Below are positions 3,742-51,878 of a DNA stretch of 64,000 nt, one piece after another. Where the stretch lies: positions 112,038-176,037 of the forward strand of contig JAJYDK010000004.1 of NCBI GenBank assembly GCA_021777555.1, in the 5' to 3' direction. Every line of letters starts with the position of its first letter. The stretch's first letter is position 1. Source of the stretch: Pseudomonadota bacterium. GTDB lineage: Bacteria > Pseudomonadota > Gammaproteobacteria > Steroidobacterales > Steroidobacteraceae. Under the pieces are notes generated by a model, which made no database searches, had not been told where the DNA came from, and saw only the letters and a list, made by a program, of their open reading frames with translations. The translations under genes were made by a program, and so were the position numbers.

Positions 3742-4926
3742 TCAGTCGGCGCGCTGCAGCACCAGGCTGCAGTTCGAGCCGCCGAACCCGAAGGAGTTGC
3801 TGAGCACGCGTGCAAGCGGCCGCCGGCGATTCTCGCGCAGGTACTCGAAGCCCACCGTGGGGTCGGTCTCGGTGGTGTTGACGCCGCCCGGGGCGAAGCC
3901 GTGCCGCAGGGCGAGCGCGCACAGGACGGCCTCCAGGGCGCCGGCGGCGCCGAGCGTGTGGCCCGTGGCGCCCTTGGTCGAGCTGCCCGCGATCCCCGGC
4001 CCGAACACCGCCGAGACCGCGCGGCTCTCGGCGCTGTCATTGCTCGGCGTGCCGGTCCCGTGCAGGTTGACGTAGTCGATGTCCTGAGGAGCCAGGGCGG
4101 CGGTCCCGAGCGCTTGGCGCATCGCCGCCTGGGCGCCCAGGCCCTCGGGGTGGGGCGAGGACATGTGATAGGCATCGCTCGACTCGCCGATGCCCGTGAG
4201 CAGGATCGTCCCCGGCGCCCCCGAGGGCCGCTCGAGCAGTGCGAACGCCGCCGCTTCGCCGATCGAGATGCCATCGCGCGCCGCATCGAAGGGCCGGCAG
4301 GGGTTGCGGGACACGAGCTGCAGGGAGTGGAAGCCATAGAGGGTCGTGAGACACAGGGAGTCGACTCCGCCCACCACGGCGGCATCGATCAGACCCGCCT
4401 CGATCATGCGGCGCGCCGACGCGAACGCCTTGGCGCTCGAGGAGCAGGCGGTGCAGATGACCGCCGAGGGTCCCTCGATCCCGAGCACGCGCTGCGTGAA
4501 GGTTGCGAGGGAGTACGGGTTGTGCGTGGCCGCGTAATCGAACCGGGCGGGCAGCGCTCCCGTGGCATCGCGCCGCCGGTAGGCGATCTCCGTCTCGAGC
4601 ATGCCCGAGGTGCTGGTGCCGAGATAGAGTCCGACCCGGCGCGGTCCGAGGCGCTCGGCGCAGGCGGATACCGCCTCGATGAAGCCGTCCTGCGAGAGGC
4701 CGAGCAGCGCCAGTCGGTTGTTGCGCGAGTCGAAGCGCGCGAGCCCGGGCGGCAGGCTCACCCCGTCCACACCCGGCACCTCGCCGATGTGCGTCTCGAG
4801 CCGCACGGTCTCGAAGGCGCAGGGCGTGAGCCCGCTGCGCCCCACGAGCAGCGAGTGCAGCGTCTCGGTGAGACCGCGCCCGATGCAGCTGGTGGCGGTG
4901 AAATGAGTGAGCGCGAGCGGCGTCAT
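3742..4926 (-). CDS. beta-ketoacyl-ACP synthase (FabF/FabB type)
   Basis: ICTACSSSAKA active-site Cys, NLHGTGTPSND and SNSFGFGGSN His/Gly motifs. Confidence 0.9.
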   Translation of the reverse strand: MTPLALTHFTATSCIGRGLTETLHSLLVGRSGLTPCAFETVRLETHIGEVPGVDGVSLPPGLARFDSRNNRLALLGLSQDGFIEAVSACAERLGPRRVGLYLGTSTSGMLETEIAYRRRDATGALPARFDYAATHNPYSLATFTQRVLGIEGPSAVICTACSSSAKAFASARRMIEAGLIDAAVVGGVDSLCLTTLYGFHSLQLVSRNPCRPFDAARDGISIGEAAAFALLERPSGAPGTILLTGIGESSDAYHMSSPHPEGLGAQAAMRQALGTAALAPQDIDYVNLHGTGTPSNDSAESRAVSAVFGPGIAGSSTKGATGHTLGAAGALEAVLCALALRHGFAPGGVNTTETDPTVGFEYLRENRRRPLARVLSNSFGFGGSNCSLVLQRAD

Positions 4927-5729
4927 GGGAGGGCGGCGCTCAGCGTCACCGGCGCAAGACCCGCCTCCAACACTGCATCGAGCAGTCGCGGCAGCACCTC
5001 GAGAATCACCGGCACGCCGCGCGAGGTGCGCGCCGCATGGCCATCGTGCAGCAGCAGGATGTCGCCGGCGCCCAAGTCCCGGGCGAGCCTGCCGTACACC
5101 GCCTCGACGCTCGGATTGACGGTATCGAATCCGCGCCGCGTCCAGCTCGCGAGCGTGAGGCCGAGACGCTGCAGCACCGGATCGAGGAAGGGGTTGCGCA
5201 GTCCCGCCGGGGCGCGGAAGAACCTCGGGCGCCGGCCCGTGGCCGCCCCGATCGATTCCTGCGCCCGCTCGATCTCGCTCGCGAGGCCGCGGGGTCCGAG
5301 GAGTGAGAAATGATTCATGTGATGCTGGCTGTGGTTCTCGACCGCGTGCCCGCGCTCGATGAGCGCACGCGTGAGATCCGGATGGCGCCCGACGCGCTCG
5401 CCGATGCAGAAGAAGGTGGCCGGTGCCCGGTATTCGTCGAGCCGCTCGAGCACTCGCGGGGTGACCTCGGGATCTGGACCGTCATCGATGGTGAGCGCCA
5501 CGCCGGCGCCTGTGCCCGGCAGCCGCGTCCAGTTCGGTCCGAGCAGGCGGCTGCGGGGCGAGAGGCCGGCGGCCGCGAGCAGCGCGTGGTCCGCAGCCAC
5601 GGCCCCGAGCGCCCAGGGCCAGGCCGCGGGCTGGGCGAGCACGGCCGCGAGGGCCCCGCCGTGCACGCCCAGGGAGGCGAGCACGAGCGGCGAGGGGCGC
5701 CAGGCGGGGATGGCGGGACGGGTCGTCAT
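4923..5729 (-). CDS. NodB-type polysaccharide deacetylase
   Basis: LTIDDGPDPEVTPRVLE ... ATFFCIGERV ... ENHSQHH. Confidence 0.85.
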   Translation of the reverse strand: MTTRPAIPAWRPSPLVLASLGVHGGALAAVLAQPAAWPWALGAVAADHALLAAAGLSPRSRLLGPNWTRLPGTGAGVALTIDDGPDPEVTPRVLERLDEYRAPATFFCIGERVGRHPDLTRALIERGHAVENHSQHHMNHFSLLGPRGLASEIERAQESIGAATGRRPRFFRAPAGLRNPFLDPVLQRLGLTLASWTRRGFDTVNPSVEAVYGRLARDLGAGDILLLHDGHAARTSRGVPVILEVLPRLLDAVLEAGLAPVTLSAALP

Positions 5730-14402: not shown

Positions 14403-15719
14403 TCAGGCGCAACGGATGTTTCTCGAGCGCCGGCGCAGGGCCGCGAGCGAGCGGCCCGGCATGGCGAGCGAGTTCAGATAGTAAAGGACCTGGAAGAGGC
14501 GCAGCGAGCGCCACAGCGGCGTGTCCTCGTAGAGGTCGCCCGAGAGGAACGAGAGCAGCGCCTCGCGCACGCGCAGCGGATTGCGCGGCTTCATGAACAG
14601 CGACTGCATGGCCGGGTGGTTCATGCGGTAGATGAACCAGGCGAAGCGCTCGGGACCGAGGCGCACCCGGCGCTCGAAGCGGCGCATCGCCTCGTGCCGG
14701 CGGCGTGGGTCGCCCAGGCACGCATCGATCGTCTCGGCGGCGGCGACGCCGCCGATCATCGCGAACAGCACGCCCGAGGAGAACACCGGGTCGATGAACG
14801 AGTAGGCATCCCCCACCAGCAGATATCGCTCGCCGTGGGTGTGCGCGCAGCGGTAGGTGTAACTGCCGCTCGCCTCGACCCCGGTGACCCTCTCGGCCCC
14901 CTCGAGGCGCGCCGCGAGCGGCGGGGAGAGCGCGATGGTGTCCCGAAAGAACGCCTCGAGCGGGCCCTTGCGCGCCTTCATGTAGTACGGCCAGACCACC
15001 GCGCCCACACTGGTGATGCCGTCGGCGAGGGGTATGAACCAGAACCATCCGTGCTCGAACCAGAAGATGGTGATGTCACCGGCCCGATCGCCCTGCTCAT
15101 GGCGCCACGCTCCCTTGAAATGCGCGTACAGGGCGCAGCTCGCGTGCCGCGGGTTGCGCTCCTTGATCCCGAGCCGGCTGCCGAGGAATGTGTCACGTCC
15201 GGAGGCATCGATGAGGTAACGCGGCCGCCAGGTCGTGCGCGCTCCCTCCTCGCCCTCGGTGCGCACCAACAGCGCATCGCGCGCGGGAAACTCCACCTCC
15301 TGCGCCCGGCAGCCCTCGATCACCCGCGCCCCGAGGCGCTCGGCGCGGCGCAGCAGAATCTCATCGAACGCGGAGCGCCGCACCTGGTAGGCCGAGGGCA
15401 GCGCGCGGTTCCAACTGTCGTCGAAGCAGAAGCGCTCGCTCCTGCCGTGCGCGGGCGAGTGGAACTCCGCGCCGTGCTTCGGCATGCCGATGGCGCGGAT
15501 CTGCTCCGCCACCCCCAGCCGCTCAAAGAGCGGCAGGTTCGCCGGCAGGAGCGACTCCCCGATATGAAACCGAGGGTGGCGCGAGCGCTCGATGAGCACC
15601 ACGCGGTGACCGGCCTCGGCGAGCACGGCCGCCGCGCTCGAGCCGCCCGGCCCCCCACCGACGATGAGCACATCGGGCTCCTCCGGCGCCGGAGGCGTCG
15701 GTTGCGCGTGGGAGGCCAC
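14403..15719 (-). CDS. FAD-dependent oxidoreductase, flavin-halogenase-like
   Basis: GGGPGGSSAA FAD motif; WFWFIP matches WxWxIP of flavin-dependent halogenases; GDAYSFIDPVFSSG. Confidence 0.85.
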   Translation of the reverse strand: MASHAQPTPPAPEEPDVLIVGGGPGGSSAAAVLAEAGHRVVLIERSRHPRFHIGESLLPANLPLFERLGVAEQIRAIGMPKHGAEFHSPAHGRSERFCFDDSWNRALPSAYQVRRSAFDEILLRRAERLGARVIEGCRAQEVEFPARDALLVRTEGEEGARTTWRPRYLIDASGRDTFLGSRLGIKERNPRHASCALYAHFKGAWRHEQGDRAGDITIFWFEHGWFWFIPLADGITSVGAVVWPYYMKARKGPLEAFFRDTIALSPPLAARLEGAERVTGVEASGSYTYRCAHTHGERYLLVGDAYSFIDPVFSSGVLFAMIGGVAAAETIDACLGDPRRRHEAMRRFERRVRLGPERFAWFIYRMNHPAMQSLFMKPRNPLRVREALLSFLSGDLYEDTPLWRSLRLFQVLYYLNSLAMPGRSLAALRRRSRNIRCA

Positions 15720-36424: not shown

Positions 36425-36892
36425 ATGGACGACAACAGGAGAGCGCGCATGCACGTCGAAGACGATCGAGGCTTTGCTCAATCCGGACTGGACATCCCGT
36501 CGCGGATGTCGGAGATAGAGACAGGCGTCACCGAAGTCAGGATCCAACTGGCGACGCTCATCGCCCGGCTGACCGGGGTCGAGTCAGACCTCGCCGCGCT
36601 CAAGACCGGCATGTGTATCGCCGAGACGCGCCTCGCTGGCCTCGAGAACCGGCAGCGGCATGCCGAGACCCAGCGGGAGCGGAACGAGAGCCGGTTCACG
36701 GATATCGATTACGGCGTGGACCGGGTGCAGTCCGACATGGCGACGCTCAAGGACCGCGTGCGCTGCGTCGAGCTCGACCTGCGGGAGCTCTCCGGGAGCC
36801 TGTACCGCGGGCCCAGGCCGGGCGGTCAGAGCGACACGCTCGGCCCCCTGAGCCACGCGGTGAGCCGCCAGGTGGGCTTCAAGAGCCGCTGA
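36425..36892 (+). CDS. hypothetical coiled-coil protein
   Basis: ORF with coiled-coil-rich sequence (EIETGVTEVRIQLATLIARLTGVESDLAALK); start uncertain; 3' end overlaps hipA by 14 bp convergently. Confidence 0.45.
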   Translation: MDDNRRARMHVEDDRGFAQSGLDIPSRMSEIETGVTEVRIQLATLIARLTGVESDLAALKTGMCIAETRLAGLENRQRHAETQRERNESRFTDIDYGVDRVQSDMATLKDRVRCVELDLRELSGSLYRGPRPGGQSDTLGPLSHAVSRQVGFKSR

Positions 36893-38240
36893 GGGGGCTT
36901 GCCTGCTTGGGGCGGGCCGCTCGCCGCGTCCCGCCCGGGGCGACCTCGAGCCGCAGGGTCGATCGGATCTGGTCACGCTGCGTGGGCCAGACGCCGGCCT
37001 GCTGCGCGTACGCGGGCCAACGCTTCACTGCCGAGCGAACCTCATCGAGAATCGTCTCGGCCCGGCCGCGCTTGAGGCCTGCGGTCGCGGCGCATGTGCG
37101 GAAATCCTCGAGCGTGAACCCATCCTGCTTGCCGTTGATCGTCATCTGGTGAGTGCGCGTCCAGCGGCCCTCCGGGTTGTATGCGTATGTGACGTCGAAA
37201 GCGGGAGCGAGTGACCACTCGCCCCGTGGGTTCATGAGGAAGGCGATGTTCTTGACGTGGTCGTCCTGGTTGCGGGCCACGACGTTGAAGAGCATGCGAC
37301 GGAACTGTTGCTCGAGTGTGCTCATGGGCAGCTGCAGCCGGCGGATGACGTCGTAGGCCTGCTCGTAGGCGTGCGCGCCGGCGGCATTGAAGTCGAGGTG
37401 CGCGAGCGCGGCGAGGGACTGCATGTGGAGTTTGCCTCCGTCCTGCGTACGATCGAAGCGGCGGGTCATGAAGTGCCGGCGTCCGCCTTCCTCGAGCAGC
37501 CGGCACTCGCTCATCTCGATGCCCGCGTCCCGGGCCATCAACGCGTAGGCGTATTCGATGACCGTGTAGCCCTGGGGATCCTCCAGCTCCTTGTCGCGAT
37601 TGCCGCTCACCCCGTCGAATTTCAGCAGCCAGTACTGGAAGCCCTCGGGAGCGGCCACCTGTCCGGAGCGAACCTCGTTCGTCACAGGGTTCCACGCGAT
37701 GATGGCCTTCGCTCGCGCGCCTCCTGCGGAGGTGCCGACGCGCAGGATGTCCTGCAGTGCCCCGTTGCGGTGTTCCGGGATGAAGGACTCCTGAAGCGCG
37801 TGGCGATCCGAGAGCACGGCGGAGGCGAGCGCAACGAGCGCATCGACTTGGATTTTCGTGGAGCGCCGAGGACTTGGGCCCGTGGCGGGCGCGAATTCGA
37901 GGGCGCCCATGCCGCGCGAGCCGGTGTAGCAGAGTCGCTCGACGGCATTGAAGTGCTCGGGCGTGCGGCCTTGAGTGGCGAGCCAGGCATTGATGAGCGC
38001 GTTGCCGAACTTGTCGGGGAGGGAGTCGGCGAGCAGCCCGGGAAGGCCGTGGAAGGCGGCCCGGGGCAATGCGGGAAAGAGGTGGATCCGCGAGGAGAGC
38101 GGCATCACGAGCGGGGAGACCTCGATCCCACTGCCCACGAACGCCGGGTCATATTGAAAGGCCGTGACCTCGGACGCCTCGCCCAAGGAAACCGCGGCGA
38201 TGCGCCGGCCCCACAGTCTCACTTCGGCGAGGGTGGGCAT
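36879..38240 (-). CDS. hipA: HipA-family serine/threonine kinase toxin
   Basis: GLLADSLPDKFGN, YWLLKFDG, RRFDRTQDGGKLHMQSLAAL, NQDDHVKNIAFLM, LAPAFDVTY. Confidence 0.92.
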   Translation of the reverse strand: MPTLAEVRLWGRRIAAVSLGEASEVTAFQYDPAFVGSGIEVSPLVMPLSSRIHLFPALPRAAFHGLPGLLADSLPDKFGNALINAWLATQGRTPEHFNAVERLCYTGSRGMGALEFAPATGPSPRRSTKIQVDALVALASAVLSDRHALQESFIPEHRNGALQDILRVGTSAGGARAKAIIAWNPVTNEVRSGQVAAPEGFQYWLLKFDGVSGNRDKELEDPQGYTVIEYAYALMARDAGIEMSECRLLEEGGRRHFMTRRFDRTQDGGKLHMQSLAALAHLDFNAAGAHAYEQAYDVIRRLQLPMSTLEQQFRRMLFNVVARNQDDHVKNIAFLMNPRGEWSLAPAFDVTYAYNPEGRWTRTHQMTINGKQDGFTLEDFRTCAATAGLKRGRAETILDEVRSAVKRWPAYAQQAGVWPTQRDQIRSTLRLEVAPGGTRRAARPKQASPLSGS

Positions 38241-38243
38241 GGC

Positions 38244-38651
38244 TCAGGTCTTGCGCCTGGCGGGGGAGGTGTTGCGAGGGGCTTCGACGCCCCAGGTCCA
38301 CGAACTCGGGGCCGTCGCTCCCGGGGGGAGCGTCCTCGAGGCCTGGCGCCGGGGATGGGAAGCCCGTCGACGCGTCTTGCCGCGCAGTTTCAGCTGCGCG
38401 ATCGGGCTCGGTGGCAGTTCCGGGAGGAGCCGCTCGAGTCCCTCGAGCTGCTGCAATGCCCGCAATACGCGGATGAGCGTCACCAGCTCCGCGCCGGCAC
38501 CGGCCTCGATCCGCTCGAGAGTGCGCTTGCCCAGGCCGGCCCGCTCGGCGAGATCGGCCTGGGTCAGTCCGGCCTCGATCCGATGTCGCGCGATGCGTTC
38601 ACCGAGGGCCTGCAGGACTGTGGCATCCGTGAGCTCAGATGTGATCTTCAT
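38244..38651 (-). CDS. hipB: XRE-family antitoxin/repressor HipB
   Basis: LGERIARHRIEAGLTQADLAERAGLGKRTLERIEAG helix-turn-helix, directly upstream of hipA. Confidence 0.9.
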   Translation of the reverse strand: MKITSELTDATVLQALGERIARHRIEAGLTQADLAERAGLGKRTLERIEAGAGAELVTLIRVLRALQQLEGLERLLPELPPSPIAQLKLRGKTRRRASHPRRQASRTLPPGATAPSSWTWGVEAPRNTSPARRKT

Positions 38652-38670: not shown

Positions 38671-38740
38671 GATGGACGAAATATCGATCTTGAATCGGCA
38701 GATATTGCGAATAATAGCATCATAAACAAATAATCGGAAA

Positions 38741-38756
38741 TCGTCGTATATGACGA
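38741..38756. promoter_or_regulatory. HipB operator candidate O2
   Basis: TCGTCGTATATGACGA, TCGTC-N6-GACGA inverted repeat. Confidence 0.6.
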
Positions 38757-38780
38757 CAATAGGGCTTTTACAAGCTGATC

Positions 38781-38796
38781 TCGTCACATATGACGA
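38781..38796. promoter_or_regulatory. HipB operator candidate O3
   Basis: TCGTCACATATGACGA; arms extend to ATCTCGTC-ACATAT-GACGAGAT. Confidence 0.6.
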
Positions 38797-38806
38797 GATA
38801 GAGAGG

Positions 38807-39736
38807 CTAATGGGCGGTTGTCTCGGCGAGCTCGAGCAGACCGCGCTCGCGCAACACGTCGCGCATGGGCGCGAAGGGGAATTCGGCGAGAAGCCGTCCC
38901 AGGCGGTGCTCGCAGCGGTGCAGGTTCGTGTAGTGCCGGAAGCGAGAGAGCGCTCCGACACGCACACGAGGCTGCTCCGGATCGATCTCCCAGGGATGCA
39001 GGTAGAAGGGAAAGGCGCGCCTGCGCCCGTTGATCTGCCGGAGCCCCGCCCGGGTGAGCCAGTACGGGAAGATCCGGAAATACCCGCCACCGCAGATCGG
39101 CACCTTCATCCCGAGGAAGCTCGCCGGCACCATGGGGAACTCCACGAGCGAGCGCCCGGAGGGGGCGGTGACGCGCCCCGGCTCGGGCGAGGCATCGGGG
39201 ATGCCGTAGCGGTCGTGCCGGATGGGAAAGATCGACGAGTCATAGTGGAACCCCAGGTCGATCAGCGTATCGAGCGCCCAGAGCGAGGAGCGGACCACCG
39301 AGAAGCTGGCTGCCCGATACCCGAGGACCGGTGCACCGATCGCCTGCTCGAGCAGGGCTTTGGCGCGGGCGGTCTCCTCGCGAAACTCCTCCCGGCTCTG
39401 GTGATAGATCAGCTGATGCGAATAGCCGTGGCAGGCGATCTCGTGGCCGCACTCGGCGATGCGCCGGACCAGAGCGGGGTAGCGCTCGGCCACCCAGCCG
39501 AGCACGAAGAAGGTTCCGCGTATGCGCCTCTCCTCGAGAAGGGTGAGCAGGCGCTCCGTATTGCGCTCCACGCGGCACTCCCGCGTGGCCCAGCTCTCGC
39601 GTGAAACCGCAGACGCCAGGGCCGCGACGTGGAAATAATCCTCCACGTCGACGGTGAAGGCGTTCAGAGGGGCGGTGCGGTCCGTCGTCGGCGGGAGACT
39701 GTCAGCCGGCGTCAGGTTGGAGAAATGGGCTGCCAT
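38807..39736 (-). CDS. XrtA-system (PEP-CTERM-associated) polysaccharide deacetylase, DUF3473 C-term
   Basis: NAFTVDVEDYFHVAA, GTFFVLGWVAERYP, HEIACHGYSHQLIY, FPFYLHPWEIDPEQP. Confidence 0.92.
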   Translation of the reverse strand: MAAHFSNLTPADSLPPTTDRTAPLNAFTVDVEDYFHVAALASAVSRESWATRECRVERNTERLLTLLEERRIRGTFFVLGWVAERYPALVRRIAECGHEIACHGYSHQLIYHQSREEFREETARAKALLEQAIGAPVLGYRAASFSVVRSSLWALDTLIDLGFHYDSSIFPIRHDRYGIPDASPEPGRVTAPSGRSLVEFPMVPASFLGMKVPICGGGYFRIFPYWLTRAGLRQINGRRRAFPFYLHPWEIDPEQPRVRVGALSRFRHYTNLHRCEHRLGRLLAEFPFAPMRDVLRERGLLELAETTAH

Positions 39737-39790: not shown

Positions 39791-39818
39791 GAGAACGGCC
39801 CCGCGAGGGGCCGTTCTC
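39791..39818 (-). terminator. terminator hairpin H2 of PEP-CTERM gene A
   Basis: GAGAACGGCCCC-GCGA-GGGGCCGTTCTC. Confidence 0.8.
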
Positions 39819-39854
39819 GGGACACCGAAGGTGTCGAGACTTCTCTAGTGTGGC

Positions 39855-40553
39855 TCAGTGCTGCCGTGCACGGCGACGGAGGAAGATCACACAGCCCAGG
39901 AGACCTGCGGCGAACAGCGCCAGCGTGCCGGGCTCCGGTACCGTCGTGACGCTCGCGAGCACGATGTCATTCGAGTTGCCGCTCGCCTGATTGTTTGCGA
40001 ACGGGTCCGCAACGATCACTTGGTTGAAACCCGCGAGCAGCGGCGAGTTGAAATTGACGGTGCCGCCACCCTGTCCGCTGCCGATCTCGGTCCAGGCGTA
40101 GCCATCGTTGCTGCCCCACACCGACCAGGTCTCGCCCGACTGCACGGAACCGAGTTGCACGCTGGAGATATAGCCCTGGCTCGGGGACAGGTAGATGCCA
40201 TACGGATTGGCGATCTCGTTGTAGGGATAGGGATCGTTGTTCAGACCCAGGCCCTGCTCCCCGGTGCCGCCATTCTTGGCGTACAGGTCGCCGGTGCCGG
40301 GACACCAGCCCGAGTACGGTAAACTGCAGCCGGCAGAGGTGGCCGACACCACATAGAGGCCAACTCCGTCCTGGGTGAAGGTCGTGCTCGTGCCTGCGGT
40401 GCTATGACCCGGCCAGGTCGAGCTTCCGGGCGCTGCCGGCATGCCGGTGAGCGAGTAGAAGTTCCAGTCGAGCGTGCCGGCCGATGCCGGGGTGATGACG
40501 GCGGCGCCGAGCAGAGCAGCGACCGAGCAGAGCGCGGCGATCTTGAGTTTCAT
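39855..40553 (-). CDS. PEP-CTERM protein A (paralogue family A/C/D)
   Basis: Signal peptide MKLKIAALCSVAALLGAAVITPASA; C-term VPEPGTLALFAAGLLGCVIFLRRRARQH. Confidence 0.9.
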   Translation of the reverse strand: MKLKIAALCSVAALLGAAVITPASAGTLDWNFYSLTGMPAAPGSSTWPGHSTAGTSTTFTQDGVGLYVVSATSAGCSLPYSGWCPGTGDLYAKNGGTGEQGLGLNNDPYPYNEIANPYGIYLSPSQGYISSVQLGSVQSGETWSVWGSNDGYAWTEIGSGQGGGTVNFNSPLLAGFNQVIVADPFANNQASGNSNDIVLASVTTVPEPGTLALFAAGLLGCVIFLRRRARQH

Positions 40554-40604
40554 GTTCGACTCCGGTTCCCAGTATCGGGCCATACATAGCCCATCAGCAG
40601 AGAA

Positions 40605-40619
40605 GCAACTTCCAGGCCA
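40605..40619 (-). promoter_or_regulatory. sigma-54 promoter of PEP-CTERM gene A
   Basis: Minus strand TGGCCTGGAAGTTGC(T), -24/-12 spacing correct. Confidence 0.8.
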
Positions 40620-40780
40620 ACCGAAACTTTCATCGGGAAATCAGGCGGTTGTGGTTAAGGCGATGTTTTCCAGAATATGCCTTGTAAAGGAATCCGACGT
40701 CAAACAGCGACAAGCGGTGATCGTGATCAAGGCTACCCACGGCGTCTCCCGTATCAAGGCAAACGCGTGGGCCCCAATAA

Positions 40781-40810
40781 CGAGAACGGCCCCTTCAGGG
40801 GCCGTTCTCG
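40781..40810 (-). terminator. terminator hairpin H2 of PEP-CTERM gene B
   Basis: CGAGAACGGCCCC-TTCA-GGGGCCGTTCTCG. Confidence 0.8.
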
Positions 40811-40849
40811 CGACACGTTTTTGTTGTTGGAGTGTCGAGCGTGCCGAAA

Positions 40850-41554
40850 TCAGCCCTTGTGGGCGCGGCGGCGCAGCGCGAAGCCCAGGCCCGCGAGGCC
40901 TGTGGCGAACAGCGCCAGGGTCGCGGGCTCCGGGACCGTGCCAGTGCCCTCATAGAGCGCTGCGCTGTTGGCCGTTGCGATCCAATCCGTGGTGCAGTTG
41001 TCCTTCTTGCAGCTCTGGACCCCGAGGAATCCAACGACCACTGACCCGAGATCCAAGGTGCCTACGTTCAGATCCGGGCCCGAGCCTGCGGCGCCTGCCA
41101 GCGTATTGGTGCCGAGATCCGCCTGGAACACGTAGTAGCCCGTCGCCGCGGGGTCGTCATGCTGGGTGACGGGCAGCCATGCTCCGATGGGATTGTTCGG
41201 CGAGGCCGAGATTCCAAGATAGGAATCCAGTGCGCCACTCGTCCACCCCGAGCCGACTTCGGAGGCGTTCATGGTGCCATTGGCGCCACCCGTGACGGTG
41301 AAACCGGAAGGCAGCGTGTAGTTATTGGGCACCAGGATATCGACGAGGAAATCCCCGGTCGCCGGTCCCGAGGCGTACCAGAATCCAAAGTTCGGCGAAG
41401 AGGCGGTCGTCGGGGTGACCGTTCCGTTGTCGGCGCACGCCGGTGTTGGGCTAAAGCAGAACGCATGCAGCGCGCTTGCGGAGGCCGAGAAGGACCATAG
41501 GATGCCCGCGGCCGCTGCGATGCTGGTCCAAATTGCCTTCGTTGATCGAATCAT
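40850..41554 (-). CDS. PEP-CTERM protein B
   Basis: Signal peptide from MIRSTKAIW; C-term VPEPATLALFATGLAGLGFALRRRAHKG. Confidence 0.9.
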   Translation of the reverse strand: MIRSTKAIWTSIAAAAGILWSFSASASALHAFCFSPTPACADNGTVTPTTASSPNFGFWYASGPATGDFLVDILVPNNYTLPSGFTVTGGANGTMNASEVGSGWTSGALDSYLGISASPNNPIGAWLPVTQHDDPAATGYYVFQADLGTNTLAGAAGSGPDLNVGTLDLGSVVVGFLGVQSCKKDNCTTDWIATANSAALYEGTGTVPEPATLALFATGLAGLGFALRRRAHKG

Positions 41555-41611
41555 GGCAGGGATCTCCAAATCGGTTTGCCTTCGGCAAGGCGTCATCGTG
41601 CCCAATGTGCT

Positions 41612-41626
41612 GCAAGCTTCATGCCG
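41612..41626 (-). promoter_or_regulatory. sigma-54 promoter of PEP-CTERM gene B
   Basis: Minus strand CGGCATGAAGCTTGC(A): GG/GC dinucleotides at -24/-12. Confidence 0.65.
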
Positions 41627-41835
41627 CATTTTCAATCGTTTTGCGGTCGCTCGCTAAATCAATAGCTTGCAAGAGAAGTGCTGTCGCTCCGCTCAAGCCA
41701 CGCAGGCATCGATTGCGAAGTTCGTAAGAATCCCCGACACGAGGAGTCGGTCTTCCGGCCAGGGCCCCGGCCGGTGCCGCACAGCGCGGCGCCTCGAGTG
41801 AGGGCTCGTGGCGCCCGCTAGGGCGCCTGAGACAA

Positions 41836-41859
41836 GAACGGCCCCCGAAGGGGCCGTTC
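41836..41859 (-). terminator. terminator hairpin H2 of PEP-CTERM gene C
   Basis: GAACGGCCCC-CGAA-GGGGCCGTTC. Confidence 0.8.
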
Positions 41860-41897
41860 CAAGGACATCCCCGGGGATGTCCGAGCTCGCTCTGGAC

Positions 41898-42596
41898 TCA
41901 GCTCTGCCGGGCGCGGCGGCGCAGGAACAGCGCGCAACCGAGGAGACCCGCGGCAAAGAGCGCCAGCGTACCGGGCTCCGGCACGGTCGTGATGCTCTCG
42001 AGCACGACGTCGTTGGAGTTCATGTAGGGCGTTCCGCTCGGATCCGAGATGATCAGCTGGTTGTAGCCAGCGAGGCTCGCGGAGTTGAAATTCTCCGTGA
42101 GGCCACCCATGCCGTTGCCGAGCAGGGTCCACGCATAGCCATTGTTGCTGCCATAGACGGCCCAGGACTCGCCATTGCTGGTGGTGCCCTGAAGCGAGCC
42201 GATGACGACATCCGTCGCGTGTCCTCCCGCGTGCGACAAATTGACGTAGATGCCGTTCGGGTAGTAGATCTCGTTGTCACCGGAGGGATCACCGGTCAGC
42301 CCGAGACCCTGTTCCGCGGTGCTGCCACCGTTCTTGACGAACAGATCCGCAGTGCCCGGTGCCCAATTGCACGTGGACATCGACACGCTGCAGCCCGGCG
42401 AGGTGGCGGACACGACGTGCAGCTTGAACCCGTCCTGGTAGAAATTCTGTGAGGTGCCCAGGGTGACACCCGGCTGCGCGGGGCTTCCCGCGAGCTGATA
42501 GAAGTTCCAGTTGATGGTGCCGGCCAACGCCGGGGTGGCCGCAGCGGCCCCGAGCAGAGCGGCGGCTGAGAGGACAGCGGCTATTTTGAGTTTCAT
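41898..42596 (-). CDS. PEP-CTERM protein C (paralogue of A and D)
   Basis: Signal peptide MKLKIAAVLSAAALLGAAAATPALA; VPEPGTLALFAAGLLGCALFLRRRARQS. Confidence 0.9.
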   Translation of the reverse strand: MKLKIAAVLSAAALLGAAAATPALAGTINWNFYQLAGSPAQPGVTLGTSQNFYQDGFKLHVVSATSPGCSVSMSTCNWAPGTADLFVKNGGSTAEQGLGLTGDPSGDNEIYYPNGIYVNLSHAGGHATDVVIGSLQGTTSNGESWAVYGSNNGYAWTLLGNGMGGLTENFNSASLAGYNQLIISDPSGTPYMNSNDVVLESITTVPEPGTLALFAAGLLGCALFLRRRARQS

Positions 42597-42646
42597 TTCC
42601 TAAGTCTCCAGACCCAATGTCGGGGTAGTGCCCCAGCTGACCTGAA

Positions 42647-42661
42647 GCAAGTTCCGGGCCA
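42647..42661 (-). promoter_or_regulatory. sigma-54 promoter of PEP-CTERM gene C
   Basis: Minus strand TGGCCCGGAACTTGC(T). Confidence 0.8.
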
Positions 42662-42824
42662 CGAAAATAGTTGATTGTAAAACAATTACTTAGACTGTAT
42701 TTCGTATTATGTTCATCAGGGACTGTAAGAGAAATCGACGCTCAAGAGAGACGGGAATGCACCTCGCCGGACTCGATGTGACCGGATCGAGATCTGTACC
42801 GGCTCTGCGGGGGTGATTAAAGAA

Positions 42825-42848
42825 GAACGGCCCCTCGGGGGGCCGTTC
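42825..42848 (-). terminator. terminator hairpin H2 of PEP-CTERM gene D
   Basis: GAACGGCCCC-TCGG-GGGGCCGTTC. Confidence 0.8.
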
Positions 42849-42888
42849 ACAAGGACATCCGAGTCGGATGTCACAGCTCGCCCTGGTC

Positions 42889-43572: not shown

Positions 43573-43626
43573 GTCTCGACTCCTAGCCATCAATAGCAGG
43601 CACGTTATCGGCCCGCTGGAGCATGA

Positions 43627-43641
43627 GCAATTTCCGGGCCA
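43627..43641 (-). promoter_or_regulatory. sigma-54 promoter of PEP-CTERM gene D
   Basis: Minus strand TGGCCCGGAAATTGC(T). Confidence 0.8.
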
Positions 43642-43957
43642 CGCCATTTTTTCCTTCAAGAACAAATTCTTGCGTGCAATTTGCCGCTTTGACATAAGTC
43701 ATCGTAAATTAACCCGACGATGAGGAGGAGCGGACGAGGCGATCTGTCGCCGAGCTGTGACACGCTTCACCTCAAGTGTCGCCGGATGCAATCAGAATTT
43801 TGTGGTGTGGTGGCCCTTGTCGCCATCCACCATCGTGTTTCGTGGTTCCGGGCTGTAAAAGATTCCGACGATCGAGCGCTGCGCAACTGAATCGTTCAGC
43901 TGGCAGTCATCGGGGCGAGCACATACTGTGTCTGAAGCGTACCAGGGGAAGTTTCTC

Positions 43958-45616
43958 ATGCGTGATCCCGCACTCAACCGCGCGTTGCTGCGCGCCGGGT
44001 ATCGGACTCTTTTTGCGCTCTCCATGCTGTCTCTGGCCGCCTGCGGCGGCGGGGGGAGCAGTGGCAGCAGCAGCAGCTCGAGTGGCGGTGGCACCACCAG
44101 CTCTTTCACGATCGGCGGAACCGTCACAGGGCTCAATGCCTCGGGACTGGTGCTCACCGACAACGGCGGCGACAACCTCACGGTGGCCTCCGGTTCGAGC
44201 ACCTTCACCTTCGCCACCAAGCTCACGAGCGGATCGACCTACGACGTGGCGGTAGCCACTCAGCCGACGGGTGAGACCTGCTCGGTGAGCAACGCCACCG
44301 GTACCGACACGGCCAACGTCACCACGGTCAGCGTGTCCTGCGCGGTTGCGACGTATACGGTTTCGGGCACCATCACCGGATTGTCCAACGCGGGATTGAA
44401 GCTGCTCGACTACACGGGCGGGGAGACGCTCTCGGTGAGCGCCGGCAAGACGAGCTATCAATTCACCCAGACCGTGCCCTACGGCACCCAGGTTCAGGTG
44501 ACCGTGGCGGCGCAGCCCTCGCTCGAGACCTGCACCGCCGGCACCTCCAATTTCAACGGACCCATCAAGGCCAATGTCACCACGGACACCTTCAGCTGCA
44601 CCACGCTGCTGGCGACTGTGAGCACCTTCGCGGGCTCGACGACTTCCGGCAACGTCAATGGCACGGGCACCGCTGCCCGATTCGACGGTCCCATTGGGGT
44701 CGCTGTGGACTCCTCGGGGAACCTCTACGTGGCCGACAGCACCAACAACGAGATCCGGTTGATCACCCCCGCGGGTGCCGTGACGACGCTGGCGGGCACG
44801 CACACCGCCGGGTACATCGACAATACGACCGGAAATCTGGCCGAATTCAACTATCCGACCGGGGTGGCGGTGGACTCCTCCGGCACGATCTACGTGGCCG
44901 ATTTCTACAACAACAGGATCCGCAAGATCGTGTGCACGAGCCTGACGGCCACCGCCTGCACCGTCTCGACGCTCGCGGGACAGTCCACGGCGGGATCCGC
45001 CGACGGCACGGGCGCCCTGGCCCAGTTCAACGAGCCGAGCGGCGTTGCGGTAGATTCCTCCGGCAATGTCTATGTGGCCGACAGCGCCAACAACGAGATC
45101 CGCAAGATCACCCCCGCCGGCGTCGTGACGACGATCGCGGGCTCGACCACCGCGGGCAGTACGGACGGCTCGGGCACCTCGGCGTCATTCAAGAAGCCGG
45201 CCGGTGTGGCGGTGGATTCCGCCGGGAACGTCTACGTCGCGGATTTCGGCAACAACGAGATCCGCATGATCGATGCCTCGGACGTGGTGAGCACGCTGGC
45301 GGGGTCCACCACGGCCGGCAACAAGGACGGCACGGGGAGTGCTGCCGCGTTCTCCGGTCCGAACGACGTGGCGGTGGATGCCGCGGGCAATGTGTATGTG
45401 GCGGACTCCGGGAACAACGAGATCCGCCTGGTTGCGCCGTCGGGGCTGGTGAGCACGCTGGCGGGCACGGGCGCCCTGGGCAGCCTGGACGGCCCGGCCA
45501 ATACCGCCACGTTCTACAGCCCGAGCGGTCTTGCCGTGGTCACCTCCGGCAGTGCCGCGGGGGATGTGTTCGTCGGCGATCTCGGCAACAACGAAATCCG
45601 CGAGATCGTGCCCTGA
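43958..45616 (+). CDS. NHL-repeat beta-propeller lipoprotein with two N-terminal Ig-like repeats
   Basis: Lipobox LSLAACGGGG; two IGGTVTGLNxxGL/SGTITGLSNAGL repeats; six NHL repeats (VAVDSSGNxYVADxxNNEIR). Confidence 0.88.
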   Translation: MRDPALNRALLRAGYRTLFALSMLSLAACGGGGSSGSSSSSSGGGTTSSFTIGGTVTGLNASGLVLTDNGGDNLTVASGSSTFTFATKLTSGSTYDVAVATQPTGETCSVSNATGTDTANVTTVSVSCAVATYTVSGTITGLSNAGLKLLDYTGGETLSVSAGKTSYQFTQTVPYGTQVQVTVAAQPSLETCTAGTSNFNGPIKANVTTDTFSCTTLLATVSTFAGSTTSGNVNGTGTAARFDGPIGVAVDSSGNLYVADSTNNEIRLITPAGAVTTLAGTHTAGYIDNTTGNLAEFNYPTGVAVDSSGTIYVADFYNNRIRKIVCTSLTATACTVSTLAGQSTAGSADGTGALAQFNEPSGVAVDSSGNVYVADSANNEIRKITPAGVVTTIAGSTTAGSTDGSGTSASFKKPAGVAVDSAGNVYVADFGNNEIRMIDASDVVSTLAGSTTAGNKDGTGSAAAFSGPNDVAVDAAGNVYVADSGNNEIRLVAPSGLVSTLAGTGALGSLDGPANTATFYSPSGLAVVTSGSAAGDVFVGDLGNNEIREIVP

Positions 45617-45811: not shown

Positions 45812-47887
45812 GTGCTCGGGTACCTCCTATCGGCCCTCGCCTATGCGGCGCTGCTCGCGGCGACCCTGACGCTTTGGCGGCGACGCCTCACCGGCTCCGG
45901 CCTTGCCACGGCGCTGGGCGCCCAGTTCGGCTGGTCCCTCGTGCTCGCGGCGCAGGCGGGTGGTGTGGGCTTTCCCTTGGGACTCGGGATCGCGGCCGAG
46001 TACCTGCGCGACCTCGCCTGGATGCTCGTGCTGGTGCGCTGCCTGGGGCGCTCGGAAGCCACCCGCGTCGCGCACCTCGTTCAGCGAGTGCTCGTGGTGC
46101 TCGTGGCGCTGGTGGTCCTCTTTGCCATCGGCACCGTCCTGCCGGGTCATCCCGGGGGTTTGGTGCTGCAGATCGAGCGGTTCTGGCTCTGGGGGGCCTT
46201 CGTTCTCGCCATCGCCGGCCTGATGCTGGTCGAGCAGGTGGCGCGCAATACCCGCTCCACGCAGCGCTACGCGTTGAAGTATGTGTGGCTCGCCCTCGGG
46301 GCGCTCTTCGCCTGGGACCTGTGCCTCTTCTCGATCGCGATGCTGCGCGGCAGTTTTGCCGAGGTCTTCTGGGTGGACCGCGGCGTCGTCAATGCCGCAC
46401 TGGCGGCGCTCCTGGCCGTGGGCCTGAGCCGGATTCCGGAGTGGGAGTCGGCGGCGTTTCTGTCGCCGCGCATCGTCTTCTTCAGCGCGACGCTCCTCGG
46501 GGCGGCGCTCTATGCGTTGGTCATGGCGGTCGGGAGCTTCCTCATCCGCCGGCTCGGGGGCTCCTGGGGCGCCGCCGGCCAGATGCTGTTCCTCGCCGCC
46601 GGCGCCCTGGTGCTTGCCGTGGCGGCGCTTTCGGAGCAGTTCCGCGCCTGGTCGCGGGTGACCCTCGCCAAGTATCTCTTCCCGTACCGCTACGACTACC
46701 GGAGCGAGTGGCAGAAGCTCACCCGCGCGCTCTCGGTGGGCGGCGATACACCGATCTACGATCGGATCGCCAAGGTGACGGCGGGCTTCATGAGCTCGCC
46801 CTACGGCGGGCTCTGGTTGCGGGACGCCGAGGGCGCTTATGCGCCGGTGGGAGGGGAACTCGCGACACCGCCCGCGCCCCTCGAGAGCGGCCACGCGGAG
46901 TTCTTCGACTACCTGCTGCAGCACGAGTGGATCTGCGACCTCGATCAGGCGCGCAGACCGCGGCGCGGCAAGCCCGAACTGGCGCCACCGCAGTGGATGC
47001 TGGCCAATCCACGCCTGTGGCTCGTCGTGCCGCTCATCTGCGAGAGCGCGCTCGTCGGGTTCGTGCTGATCGGGCAGCCGCTCGCCGCGGTGCGCCTTTC
47101 CTGGGAGGAGCTCGATCTGCTGCGGGCCGCCGGCCGTCAGGTGGCGAGCTTCCTCGCCTTCGAGCAGGCCGCCAAGCGCCTGGCCGAGGCGCATCAGTTC
47201 GAAGCGATGAACCGCCTCTCCGCCGTCCTCATGCACGACCTCAGGCACCTGATCGCCCAGCAGGCGCTCGTGGTGCAGAACGCATCGCGCCATCGCGGCA
47301 ATCCGGAATTCTTCGACGATGCCATCCTCACGATCGACAATTCCGTCAAGCGCATGACCCGCCTCATGGAGGAGCTCAGAAACGGCATGCTCACCGAGCA
47401 GAACCGTCGGGTGGAGCTGAGTGAGCTCTGCGCCGAAGCGATCCGTCGCTGCTCTGGTCAACCCGTCCCGGTGCTCGAGGTGCGTGAGCGTGGGGAAGTC
47501 GTCCTCAATCGCGAGCGGCTGCTGCAGGTGCTCGAGCATCTCATCCGCAATGCCCAGGAGGCGACACCGGCGGACGGATCGGTTACCGTACGGCTCCAAA
47601 AGACAGGTCACCATGCGGTCATCGAGGTGATCGACACCGGCAGCGGCATGGACGAGGAGTTCGTCCGGCATCGGCTGTTCCGGCCCTTCGAAACCACCAA
47701 GGGCGAGCGGGGGTTCGGGATCGGCGCCTACCAGGCGCGCGAGTTCGTGCGCAAGTGCGGCGGCACCATCGAGGTCGAGAGCCGCCCGGGACGCGGGACG
47801 CGATTCATCCTGCGGCTGCCGCTCGCACCGGCACTCTCTGTCCCCTCTGCTACGGAAGGAGAACAAATTGGACTCCAAGCCAACTAG
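45812..47887 (+). CDS. prsK: XrtA/PEP-CTERM system histidine kinase PrsK
   Basis: Multi-TM N-term, GAF-like middle, LMHDLRHLIAQQALVVQNA H-box, GFGIGAYQAREFVRKCGG. Confidence 0.9.
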   Translation: MLGYLLSALAYAALLAATLTLWRRRLTGSGLATALGAQFGWSLVLAAQAGGVGFPLGLGIAAEYLRDLAWMLVLVRCLGRSEATRVAHLVQRVLVVLVALVVLFAIGTVLPGHPGGLVLQIERFWLWGAFVLAIAGLMLVEQVARNTRSTQRYALKYVWLALGALFAWDLCLFSIAMLRGSFAEVFWVDRGVVNAALAALLAVGLSRIPEWESAAFLSPRIVFFSATLLGAALYALVMAVGSFLIRRLGGSWGAAGQMLFLAAGALVLAVAALSEQFRAWSRVTLAKYLFPYRYDYRSEWQKLTRALSVGGDTPIYDRIAKVTAGFMSSPYGGLWLRDAEGAYAPVGGELATPPAPLESGHAEFFDYLLQHEWICDLDQARRPRRGKPELAPPQWMLANPRLWLVVPLICESALVGFVLIGQPLAAVRLSWEELDLLRAAGRQVASFLAFEQAAKRLAEAHQFEAMNRLSAVLMHDLRHLIAQQALVVQNASRHRGNPEFFDDAILTIDNSVKRMTRLMEELRNGMLTEQNRRVELSELCAEAIRRCSGQPVPVLEVRERGEVVLNRERLLQVLEHLIRNAQEATPADGSVTVRLQKTGHHAVIEVIDTGSGMDEEFVRHRLFRPFETTKGERGFGIGAYQAREFVRKCGGTIEVESRPGRGTRFILRLPLAPALSVPSATEGEQIGLQAN

Positions 47888-49290: not shown

Positions 49291-50091
49291 TCAGCTACGC
49301 GAGGCGCGCGAGCGGCGGCGCACGAGGCCGAGCGCCAGCAGGCACGCCACCCCAGCTCCGAAAAGCGCGAGCGCGTCCGGCTCCGGCACCGAGCTCACCG
49401 GCGCCTGGAGACCAAAGCCGGCGAAGCTCAGCGTTTGGTCATTGACGTCGACGGTGAAGTTGTTGGGGTCGATCAACGCGCCCATCGGCGCGTTGGTATA
49501 AACCACATAACCGTCGGTGGCCGGGAACGTGCCGAGGATGGGATTCGACGCCAGGCTCGAGAAGGTGATCGAATCCCCGGCGCCCGTGCTGCGCGAGGCC
49601 ATGCCGGCCGTGGTGCCGGAGGCGCAGCCCTCTAACGTGGAGGATCCGAATACCGGACCACAGGCTTCCACCGAGGTGGAATAGCCCGAAAGCATTGACA
49701 GCGTGGCGGAGGTCACATACGGCGCATCCGTTCCCGCGAAGATGAATGCCAGGGCGATGTCGGATGACCCATAGGGATTGAGGCCGGTGGTGCCGGCCAC
49801 TTCGATGAAACCTCCGTAAGGGCTTCCCAGGATGGCCTCACCCGTTGTGACGAGAGACGACGTGGTGGTCGTGCACGCCGAGCCATCGAGATAGCCGCAC
49901 GCTGCGGCAAGCAATGTGGTGGTGCCGGGCGCGCGACCGTCGTAGACGGGAACCCCACCGGATGTGCCGGCAGTCAGCTGCAGGGGACCGGCAAGCGCCG
50001 AGCCGGCGACCATTATCGCGGCGACGCTTGCGCCCCAGCTCCACCATTTCGCGGTCGAGCCTCGGCGGAAAGTTCGGGAATTCGCATTCAT
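49291..50091 (-). CDS. PEP-CTERM protein E
   Basis: Start MNANSRTF at 50091; C-term VPEPDALALFGAGVACLLALGLVRRRSRASRS. Confidence 0.88.
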   Translation of the reverse strand: MNANSRTFRRGSTAKWWSWGASVAAIMVAGSALAGPLQLTAGTSGGVPVYDGRAPGTTTLLAAACGYLDGSACTTTTSSLVTTGEAILGSPYGGFIEVAGTTGLNPYGSSDIALAFIFAGTDAPYVTSATLSMLSGYSTSVEACGPVFGSSTLEGCASGTTAGMASRSTGAGDSITFSSLASNPILGTFPATDGYVVYTNAPMGALIDPNNFTVDVNDQTLSFAGFGLQAPVSSVPEPDALALFGAGVACLLALGLVRRRSRASRS

Positions 50092-50188
50092 ACAGAGTTC
50101 TCCCCTTATGACCCGTGCGCGAACGGAACCGCGGTCGCTGCGGAGCGCATGCTTCTCGTTCGAGCGCATGGTCTTTCTGACATAATAA

Positions 50189-50203
50189 GCAATGATCGTG
50201 CCA
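50189..50203 (-). promoter_or_regulatory. sigma-54 promoter of PEP-CTERM gene E
   Basis: Minus strand TGGCACGATCATTGC(T), full consensus. Confidence 0.85.
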
Positions 50204-50803
50204 AACAAAAACTGTGAGACATAACAGAGACATGGGGTGTGCGGCACTTCATGCGACAGGGAAGATGTCAATTTGTTCGACGGCCCGTGGGTCGAGGCTG
50301 CCCGGAATGAGAAGACACACCGGCCCGATCCCGCGAGCGTTAACGGAAGCTTTGCCAGTCTCGGAGGAGTCCATCGAGGGGTGCTCCGCGGCATTTGTGC
50401 GGACGAAGCGTCTCCCGGCCTATCCGGCGAGGAGCACCGGGGTCATCTTGCGTATTCGTCCGATTGCGCCCGGGTTCGCGAGCGCCCCGCGGCTCTGGGC
50501 GTGCAGCGGATACTTGCCATCACGCTCACTGCGCCGCAATCGGTGTCGTCATTTCTTACATAAACGCTGATCTTGCTGACGATACTCACGTAACCCATTG
50601 ATCGGGCTGCGGTGTAGCCGGTTGGCATACGGATTGCTTTGGTTCTTCACCACACGAAGGTGGTCGCCCACTCGCGCTCCAGGCTCCGGGCAGGTCGAAT
50701 CAGAAATCGCCCCAGGAACTGCGCGCCATGCGTGGCGACCGATTCAATGCGCGCCACACCGATGTGCCGGCGCGCCTCAATCACCTGGAGCCGCGTCCAC
50801 CCC

Positions 50804-51134: not shown

Positions 51135-51878
51135 TCAGATGCTCACGCGCCGGCGCAGCGCAAAGCCGAGTGCCGCCGCCCCTGCGAGGAACAGCGCGAG
51201 CGTCGAGGGCTCGGGCACGGTCGCCTGATGAGTGTTGCTGCCGCTGATGGGGCTCGAGCCGTTCGTGCCCGATCCGCCCGTGCCTCCAGTGCCGCCCGGC
51301 GGGTCGAGCAGGCTGCTCGAGCCGTTGCCCGAAGAGCCGCCAGAGCCACCAAGTCCGCCCCGCGTGCCAGTCCCGCCGGAATCCGAGCCTGAATGGCTCG
51401 AGGGGGCCGTTCCGCCCGGGGCTCCCGCGCCGTAGGGGCTGCCGGGATCAGGGCCCGATCCCCCCGGTAGCGCGTCCGGGATCCCGAAATCCCCGAAACC
51501 GTCGCTCGGGGAGAAGGCGTAATCCCCCGAGCCCGCCACGGGATCACCCGTCGAGTCGGCCGCCCCGGCGGCGGCGGCAGGAGCCGTGGGGCTGACCGAT
51601 GCGCCGCTCGGAGCGGCCGGGCCCGCCCCGGGGGTCATCGAGGCCGACGGCTGCCCATAGGCGGCCTCGGCAGAGGGTGCCGCCGCGCCCGGCGGTGTGG
51701 GGATGGCGGGACCGGGAAGGCCCGCGTGCGGGCGTGCGGTGGCACCCGCCGGCAGCACGCCGCTTGCGGGAGGGACGCCGGTCGTATCGGGGCCGCTGCG
51801 AACGATCATCCACCCGCTGGTCGGGAAGAAGCCGAACAGGAGCAGCATCAGCAGCGGCCGTATGGTCTTGGCCTTCAT
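51135..51878 (-). CDS. PEP-CTERM protein F, Gly/Ser/Pro-rich low-complexity
   Basis: N-term hydrophobic; low complexity middle; C-term VPEPSTLALFLAGAAALGFALRRRVSI. Confidence 0.88.
   Translation of the reverse strand: MKAKTIRPLLMLLLFGFFPTSGWMIVRSGPDTTGVPPASGVLPAGATARPHAGLPGPAIPTPPGAAAPSAEAAYGQPSASMTPGAGPAAPSGASVSPTAPAAAAGAADSTGDPVAGSGDYAFSPSDGFGDFGIPDALPGGSGPDPGSPYGAGAPGGTAPSSHSGSDSGGTGTRGGLGGSGGSSGNGSSSLLDPPGGTGGTGGSGTNGSSPISGSNTHQATVPEPSTLALFLAGAAALGFALRRRVSI

Follow-up and report, generated by a model that had tools for sequence, protein, structure and literature searches.

Four adjacent minus-strand PEP-CTERM genes (genes A–D), flanked by an XrtA deacetylase gene and prsK, each end in two consecutive hairpins, H1 and H2, in the 64,000-nucleotide stretch of DNA that was analysed (the window). 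On the best reading of the sequence, this double hairpin is real, specific, conserved and beyond chance, and would be of a known kind, namely a tandem-hairpin intrinsic terminator that was multiplied together with its genes. We consider it probable that each PEP-CTERM gene is a unit of its own closed by H2, with H1 acting as an auxiliary element, and that the copies arose mainly by tandem duplication, accompanied in some relatives by block copying.

The array and its terminator-like hairpin

A PF07589 C-terminus above the cut-off of the Pfam profile was found in all four genes, and behind each of them, at the minus-strand places given by the first-pass annotation, the stop codon was followed by H1, by 0–5 nt, by H2 (GAACGGCCCC-N4-GGGGCCGTTC) and by a T-rich tail (Table 1). 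The 3′-ends of C and D were 85% alike over 47 nt, and since these are paralogous, the four hairpin copies are not independent. As to the surroundings, a HipA-family-toxin-like gene (scoring under the family cut-off) and the HTH gene preceding it (38244–38651) occupy 36879–38651 of the window and adjoin the deacetylase gene, and repeats of CGTCATAT-like motifs lie at 38680–38800. An NHL-repeat protein gene (43928–45616), which is ScyF-like (a PEP-CTERM-type beta-propeller) and below the family cut-off, is divergent from gene D; two more PEP-CTERM-like genes (49291–50394 and 51135–51878) are both without the double hairpin; and perfect sigma-54 consensus sites were found at 50188 (minus) and 52398 (plus).

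Table 1. Features of the PEP-CTERM array and its flanks (positions in the window)
Feature	Description	Position	Strand
Deacetylase gene	XrtA-system polysaccharide deacetylase (TIGR03006), next gene downstream of the array	38807..39736	-
H2 of gene A	putative terminator hairpin; stem extends to 39791-39818	39793..39816	-
H1 of gene A	GACACC-TTC-GGTGTC	39821..39835	-
Gene A	PEP-CTERM protein, 232 aa, paralogue of C and D	39855..40553	-
Putative promoter of gene A	sigma-54-like -24/-12 site, TGGCCTGGAAGTTGCT	40604..40619	-
H2 of gene B	stem extends to 40781-40810	40784..40807	-
H1 of gene B	CGACAC-15 nt-GTGTCG	40811..40837	-
Gene B	PEP-CTERM protein, body unrelated to A, C and D	40850..41554	-
Putative promoter of gene B	weak sigma-54-like site, CGGCATGAAGCTTGCA; two mismatches, alone no better than chance	41611..41626	-
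H2 of gene C		41836..41859	-
H1 of gene C	GGACATCC-CCGG-GGATGTCC	41863..41882	-
Gene C	PEP-CTERM protein, 232 aa	41898..42596	-
Putative promoter of gene C	sigma-54-like site, TGGCCCGGAACTTGCT	42646..42661	-
H2 of gene D		42825..42848	-
H1 of gene D	GACATCCG-ACT-CGGATGTC, 8 pairs, 3-nt loop	42854..42872	-
Gene D	PEP-CTERM protein, 227 aa	42889..43572	-
Putative promoter of gene D	sigma-54-like site, TGGCCCGGAAATTGCT	43626..43641	-
prsK	XrtA/PEP-CTERM histidine kinase PrsK (TIGR02916), context	45812..47887	+

Except for its 4-nt loop, H2 was the same in sequence in all four copies, bearing out the proposed near-invariance even behind the unrelated-bodied gene B, and its pattern was matched four times in the window versus none in 100 shuffles. 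The H2 stem is GC-rich, comprises 10–13 pairs and lies ∼36–40 nt downstream of the stop codon. All four regions folded better than their shuffles (z from −3.6 to −6.9), with both hairpins predicted to form in A, C and D, and with the predicted fold of gene B dominated by H2. T-tracts of 5–6 T of 8 follow H2 in this genome (TTGTCTCA for gene C), and in 36 copies of the genus a mean of 4.25 T was counted in the 8 nt behind H2 versus 0.42 A in the 8 nt before, so that H2 is oriented by its anatomy and, as the opposite strand carries no T-tract, not bidirectional. From this anatomy, the best reading is that H2 would act as an oriented intrinsic terminator, which is the plainest part of the matter and was left unsaid by the first-pass annotation. 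The modest T-tracts suggest that termination is perhaps weaker than the stem implies, or reliant on Rho or NusA.

Within the genus, the H2 stem base was changed with compensation, from G-C to A-T, in 4 of 25 aligned copies, and another compensatory change (GGCTCC/GGAGCC) was observed in four species having one short PEP-CTERM gene (G001, G041, G044 and G057), whose H2 variant, GAACGGCTCC...GGAGCCGTTC, has both sides of the pair changed. Behind the gene-B orthologue of G014 (L061, G014:C180; 4701–4724), the H2 loop is GTGA, the reverse complement of the TCAC found in three of its neighbours, as if the palindrome had been flipped.

PEP-CTERM genes are mostly single-gene operons, and in Proteobacteria most have a sigma-54 motif (PMC1569441). 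In the array, the sigma-54-like sites of A, C and D are situated ∼50–55 nt upstream of the start codons and are above chance, while that of gene B is weak. As every gene would have a promoter and a terminator of its own, the most likely role of H2 is to insulate the units, each of which would consist of a sigma-54-type promoter, the gene and its 3′-end, and be closed by H2. Once polymerase has passed H2, the 10–13-bp GC-rich hairpin together with the T-tract would release the RNA, and so would keep transcription from running on into the promoter that follows, which is controlled separately, or into the deacetylase gene. H1 most likely aids termination, protects the transcript from 3′-to-5′ decay by giving it a double-hairpin 3′-end, or does both. 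Tandem duplication immediately next to the deacetylase gene, on its upstream side, would have multiplied these units with their 3′-ends carried along, and the sequence identity between copies would be due mainly to descent.

The upstream hairpin

The spacing between H1 and H2 in this genome is at most 5 nt, which is within the 15 nt that define the second hairpin of a double-hairpin terminator. The H1 of gene D had been described with a one-base loop, which is impossible, and the loop is in fact ACT; that of gene B has, besides its long loop, a competing partner, and the predicted fold pairs it differently. GACA...TGTC is common to all four H1 copies, so the covariation of H1 in this genome comes down to about one pair (C-G versus T-A).

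When H1 was scored as a mismatch-free stem of 5 or more pairs whose end lies at most 12 nt from H2, it was found in 31 of 36 genus copies, compared with a mean of 8.0 and a maximum of 14 in shuffles; at 6 pairs, 19 of 36 copies retained it versus 2.4 in shuffles. Control windows in the coding tails of the same genes yielded 16 and 5 of 36 at 5 pairs, and 4 and 2 at 6 pairs. The stems differ among copies (GACACC, GACATCC, CACACCCC, CACGC, GGGAC, AAGAC and CGAAAC), indicating that pairing is favoured over sequence. Concomitantly, the genus alignment kept GACA...TGTC in ∼22 of 25 H1 with a two-sided change at the outermost pair only, and H1 lies at a near-constant 5–7 nt from ACGGCCCC in the 36 copies. 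Thus, of the covariation initially claimed, the persistence of pairing among relatives stood, while the covariation itself was overstated given the mostly conserved outer GACA/TGTC. H1 pairing was not lost in relatives, although H1 is absent or very short in the four single-short-gene species named above. An antiterminator switch, for which TCTCG and CGAGA of gene A could pair over H1, was rejected, as this pairing was not kept in the relatives' sequences judged by eye.

Restriction to one array and its relatives

In the 4.02-Mb genome, the exact H2 pattern was found at four places, all in the array, and a reversed control pattern at none; a shorter core, CGGCCCC...GGGGCCG, added three places genome-wide, namely one terminator that follows a TonB-receptor gene (C117) and two sites that are not terminator-like. 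A covariance-model search, as had been suggested, was performed using a model built from 25 genus copies, and returned only the same four array copies in this genome (E 1e-12 to 1.5e-8); the next match in the rest of the genome had E = 1.4, the opposite strand of the same hairpins aside. Genome-wide, 11 PEP-CTERM genes scored above the Pfam cut-off, and the model matched only the array's four. The dispersed PEP-CTERM genes with readable 3′-ends have endings that differ from the array's, and the 3′-ends were different as well in the PEP-CTERM genes of two genomes from another family, by which a general property of PEP-CTERM genes was ruled out. In 723 kb of this genome, 36 sites resembled terminators, the array's four included; all four array sites were preceded by a hairpin with 6 or more pairs (0.14 expected), and 10 of the other 32 by one with 5 or more (8.8 expected from shuffles). 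A generic genome-wide terminator was excluded by this background and by the pattern and model counts.

Exact H2 was detected in 12 of 148 genomes (this genome and its relatives), mostly of the same genus and on contigs mostly with PEP-CTERM genes, and the covariance model matched in 21 of the genus's 58 genomes. These gave 43 forward matches, ∼40 of them behind PEP-CTERM C-termini and mostly beside the deacetylase gene, the remainder being two behind unrelated genes at E ∼0.005 (G025 and G032) and one duplicated copy (G003). An H2-type hairpin directly precedes the deacetylase gene at 15 of 21 genus loci and at no readable locus outside it. A double-hairpin pattern scan of 84,980 species genomes yielded nine records, i.e. 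seven contigs from uncultured gammaproteobacterial or proteobacterial bins, several already in the relatives set, and two from Stenotrophomonas (L081 and L087) that stand behind an unrelated gene. The earlier claim that the likeness goes beyond that of ordinary terminators held: the element is array-only in the genome and almost only behind PEP-CTERM genes in the genus, H2 is not equally frequent behind unrelated operons, and elsewhere the upstream hairpin is at background.

A direct repeat of ∼340 bp (5293–5629 and 14714–15051, 91–95% alike) was observed in G003 (L062, G003:C67), spanning the last PEP-CTERM gene's end, the double hairpin behind it and the deacetylase start; the 9.4-kb insert between the repeats carries a TonB receptor, hydantoinase-like genes and a LuxR-type regulator. 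At 4900–5260 of the same locus, a 9-nt tandem repeat of ∼25 overlapping units lies inside a PEP-CTERM gene (body family 6).

Shared blocks, rival readings and known systems

Based on BLAST, 37 PEP-CTERM genes of the genus were grouped into ten body families, and both hairpins occur behind genes of most of these. Between genes of unrelated bodies, defined as having no BLAST match at 1e-3, the similarity of tails was higher within a genome, at 0.750 (n = 23), than the 0.701 obtained between genomes (n = 498), an excess reached by 0 of 2000 label permutations, and weaker within-genome effects were obtained for the H1 region (57 of 2000) and H2 (35 of 2000), all by permutations that ignore phylogeny and codon usage. 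The within-genome tail similarity could partly reflect codon usage. Two unrelated-body genes in G024 exhibited an identity of 0.36–0.76 further upstream and 0.92–1.00 in the last 75 nt, with the 3′ UTR alike at 71 of 90 nt; G003 and G029 are similar in kind, and in all three genomes the identity rises sharply at ∼−95 nt from the stop, at the onset of the PEP-CTERM codons. In some relatives, then, the block reaching from the PEP-CTERM codons through both hairpins may have been copied between different-bodied genes. Because the permutation is blind to phylogeny and codon usage and because 'unrelated' is defined by that BLAST threshold, gene conversion as the route of such copying is only suggested, the evidence being suggestive and not proof. 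No identity rise was found between B and C in this genome, i.e. no recent block copy, and the tail and 3′ UTR of B versus A, C and D were at background, H2 excepted, so that recent duplication alone is insufficient for B. The mobile 3′ cassette of the first-pass annotation was thereby upheld insofar as unrelated proteins share PEP-CTERM codons and 3′-end in three relatives, and not upheld as a freely moving element.

Descent may account for the whole, with paralogous 3′-ends, an ordinary terminator in H2 and a functionless H1, which we regard as unlikely. A, C and D are paralogues with closely similar C and D ends, and H1 is missing or very short where a single short PEP-CTERM gene exists, but H1 persists across species despite its sequence change, and both hairpins are carried by the unrelated-bodied gene B and by most body families. 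A further proposal, rather doubtful in our judgement, is a composite 3′ cassette of PEP-CTERM codons, stop, H1 and H2 that would move between genes by recombination as one unit, with H1 as the regulon's shared post-transcriptional handle; a new secreted body placed in front would then gain surface sorting and an insulated 3′-end at once.

Quite unlikely, too, is a functional RNA beyond termination, i.e. an RNA-binding-protein site or the body of a 3′-UTR small RNA exerting common post-transcriptional control. The usual shape of 3′-UTR small RNAs is a hairpin and then a terminator, and the preferred GACA...TGTC of H1, its near-constant spacing and the confinement of the element to one regulon would suit such a role, but the differing H1 of several relatives (CACGC, GGGAC, AAGAC and CGAAAC) and its absence in some fit poorly with a sequence-specific binding site. 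In addition, no Rfam 15 family was matched at its gathering cut-off (the best was Listeria sbrA, 26.9 bits versus a cut-off of 45), and a conserved unpaired seed was not seen. A mobile palindromic repeat (REP/MITE-like) inserting behind genes is highly improbable. Several near-identical palindromes do occur in one genome, and one G003 copy stands without a PEP-CTERM gene, but that copy is part of the ∼340-bp duplication flanking the insert and not an independent insertion, and the genome holds just four copies in one array and in one orientation relative to the gene; such counts, far from many dispersed copies, largely refute it.

The preferred tandem-hairpin terminator has precedents. Tandem hairpins were reported to terminate better than single ones, and a case behind M. 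smegmatis gyrA is cited (PMC8355165). Like those clustered-hairpin terminators, the hairpins here lie <15 nt apart just past the stop with a T-tract after the last; unlike them, near-same sequence stands behind different gene families, with the pair restricted to a single array and its relatives. Single-gene units, a sigma-54-like motif, and adjacent PrsK and XrtA deacetylase genes conform to the PEP-CTERM/XrtA system under sigma-54/PrsK/PrsR control, for which the greater likeness of PEP-CTERM tails within species was described as a modular domain having expanded (Haft et al. 2006, PMC1569441); in contrast to that work, where the word 'terminator' is absent, the module in some species includes a non-coding double hairpin. 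As palindromes behind genes that could block 3′-to-5′ exonucleases, the hairpins resemble REP/BIME repeats and 3′-UTR stabilising hairpins, but differ from REP/BIME in forming four clustered, oriented copies with a T-tract and no dispersal in the genome. With 3′-UTR-derived small RNAs they share a hairpin plus terminator at the mRNA 3′-end, but they show neither a family match nor a conserved seed. No literature linking PEP-CTERM to a transcription terminator, stem-loop, hairpin or gene conversion was found. Tandem-hairpin terminators and species-specific PEP-CTERM tails are each known, and their union in one block appears to be new.

The cassette behaviour in the relatives is the most interesting part, as the known modularity of PEP-CTERM surface proteins would be extended to non-coding 3′-ends. 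The four putative terminators form a natural matched set for the effect of an upstream hairpin on an intrinsic terminator, and the array provides a clear test case for the insulation and diversification of surface-protein genes that stand in a row under separate control. Were the cassette exchange real, it would explain how a newly recruited exported protein could acquire sorting and termination together.
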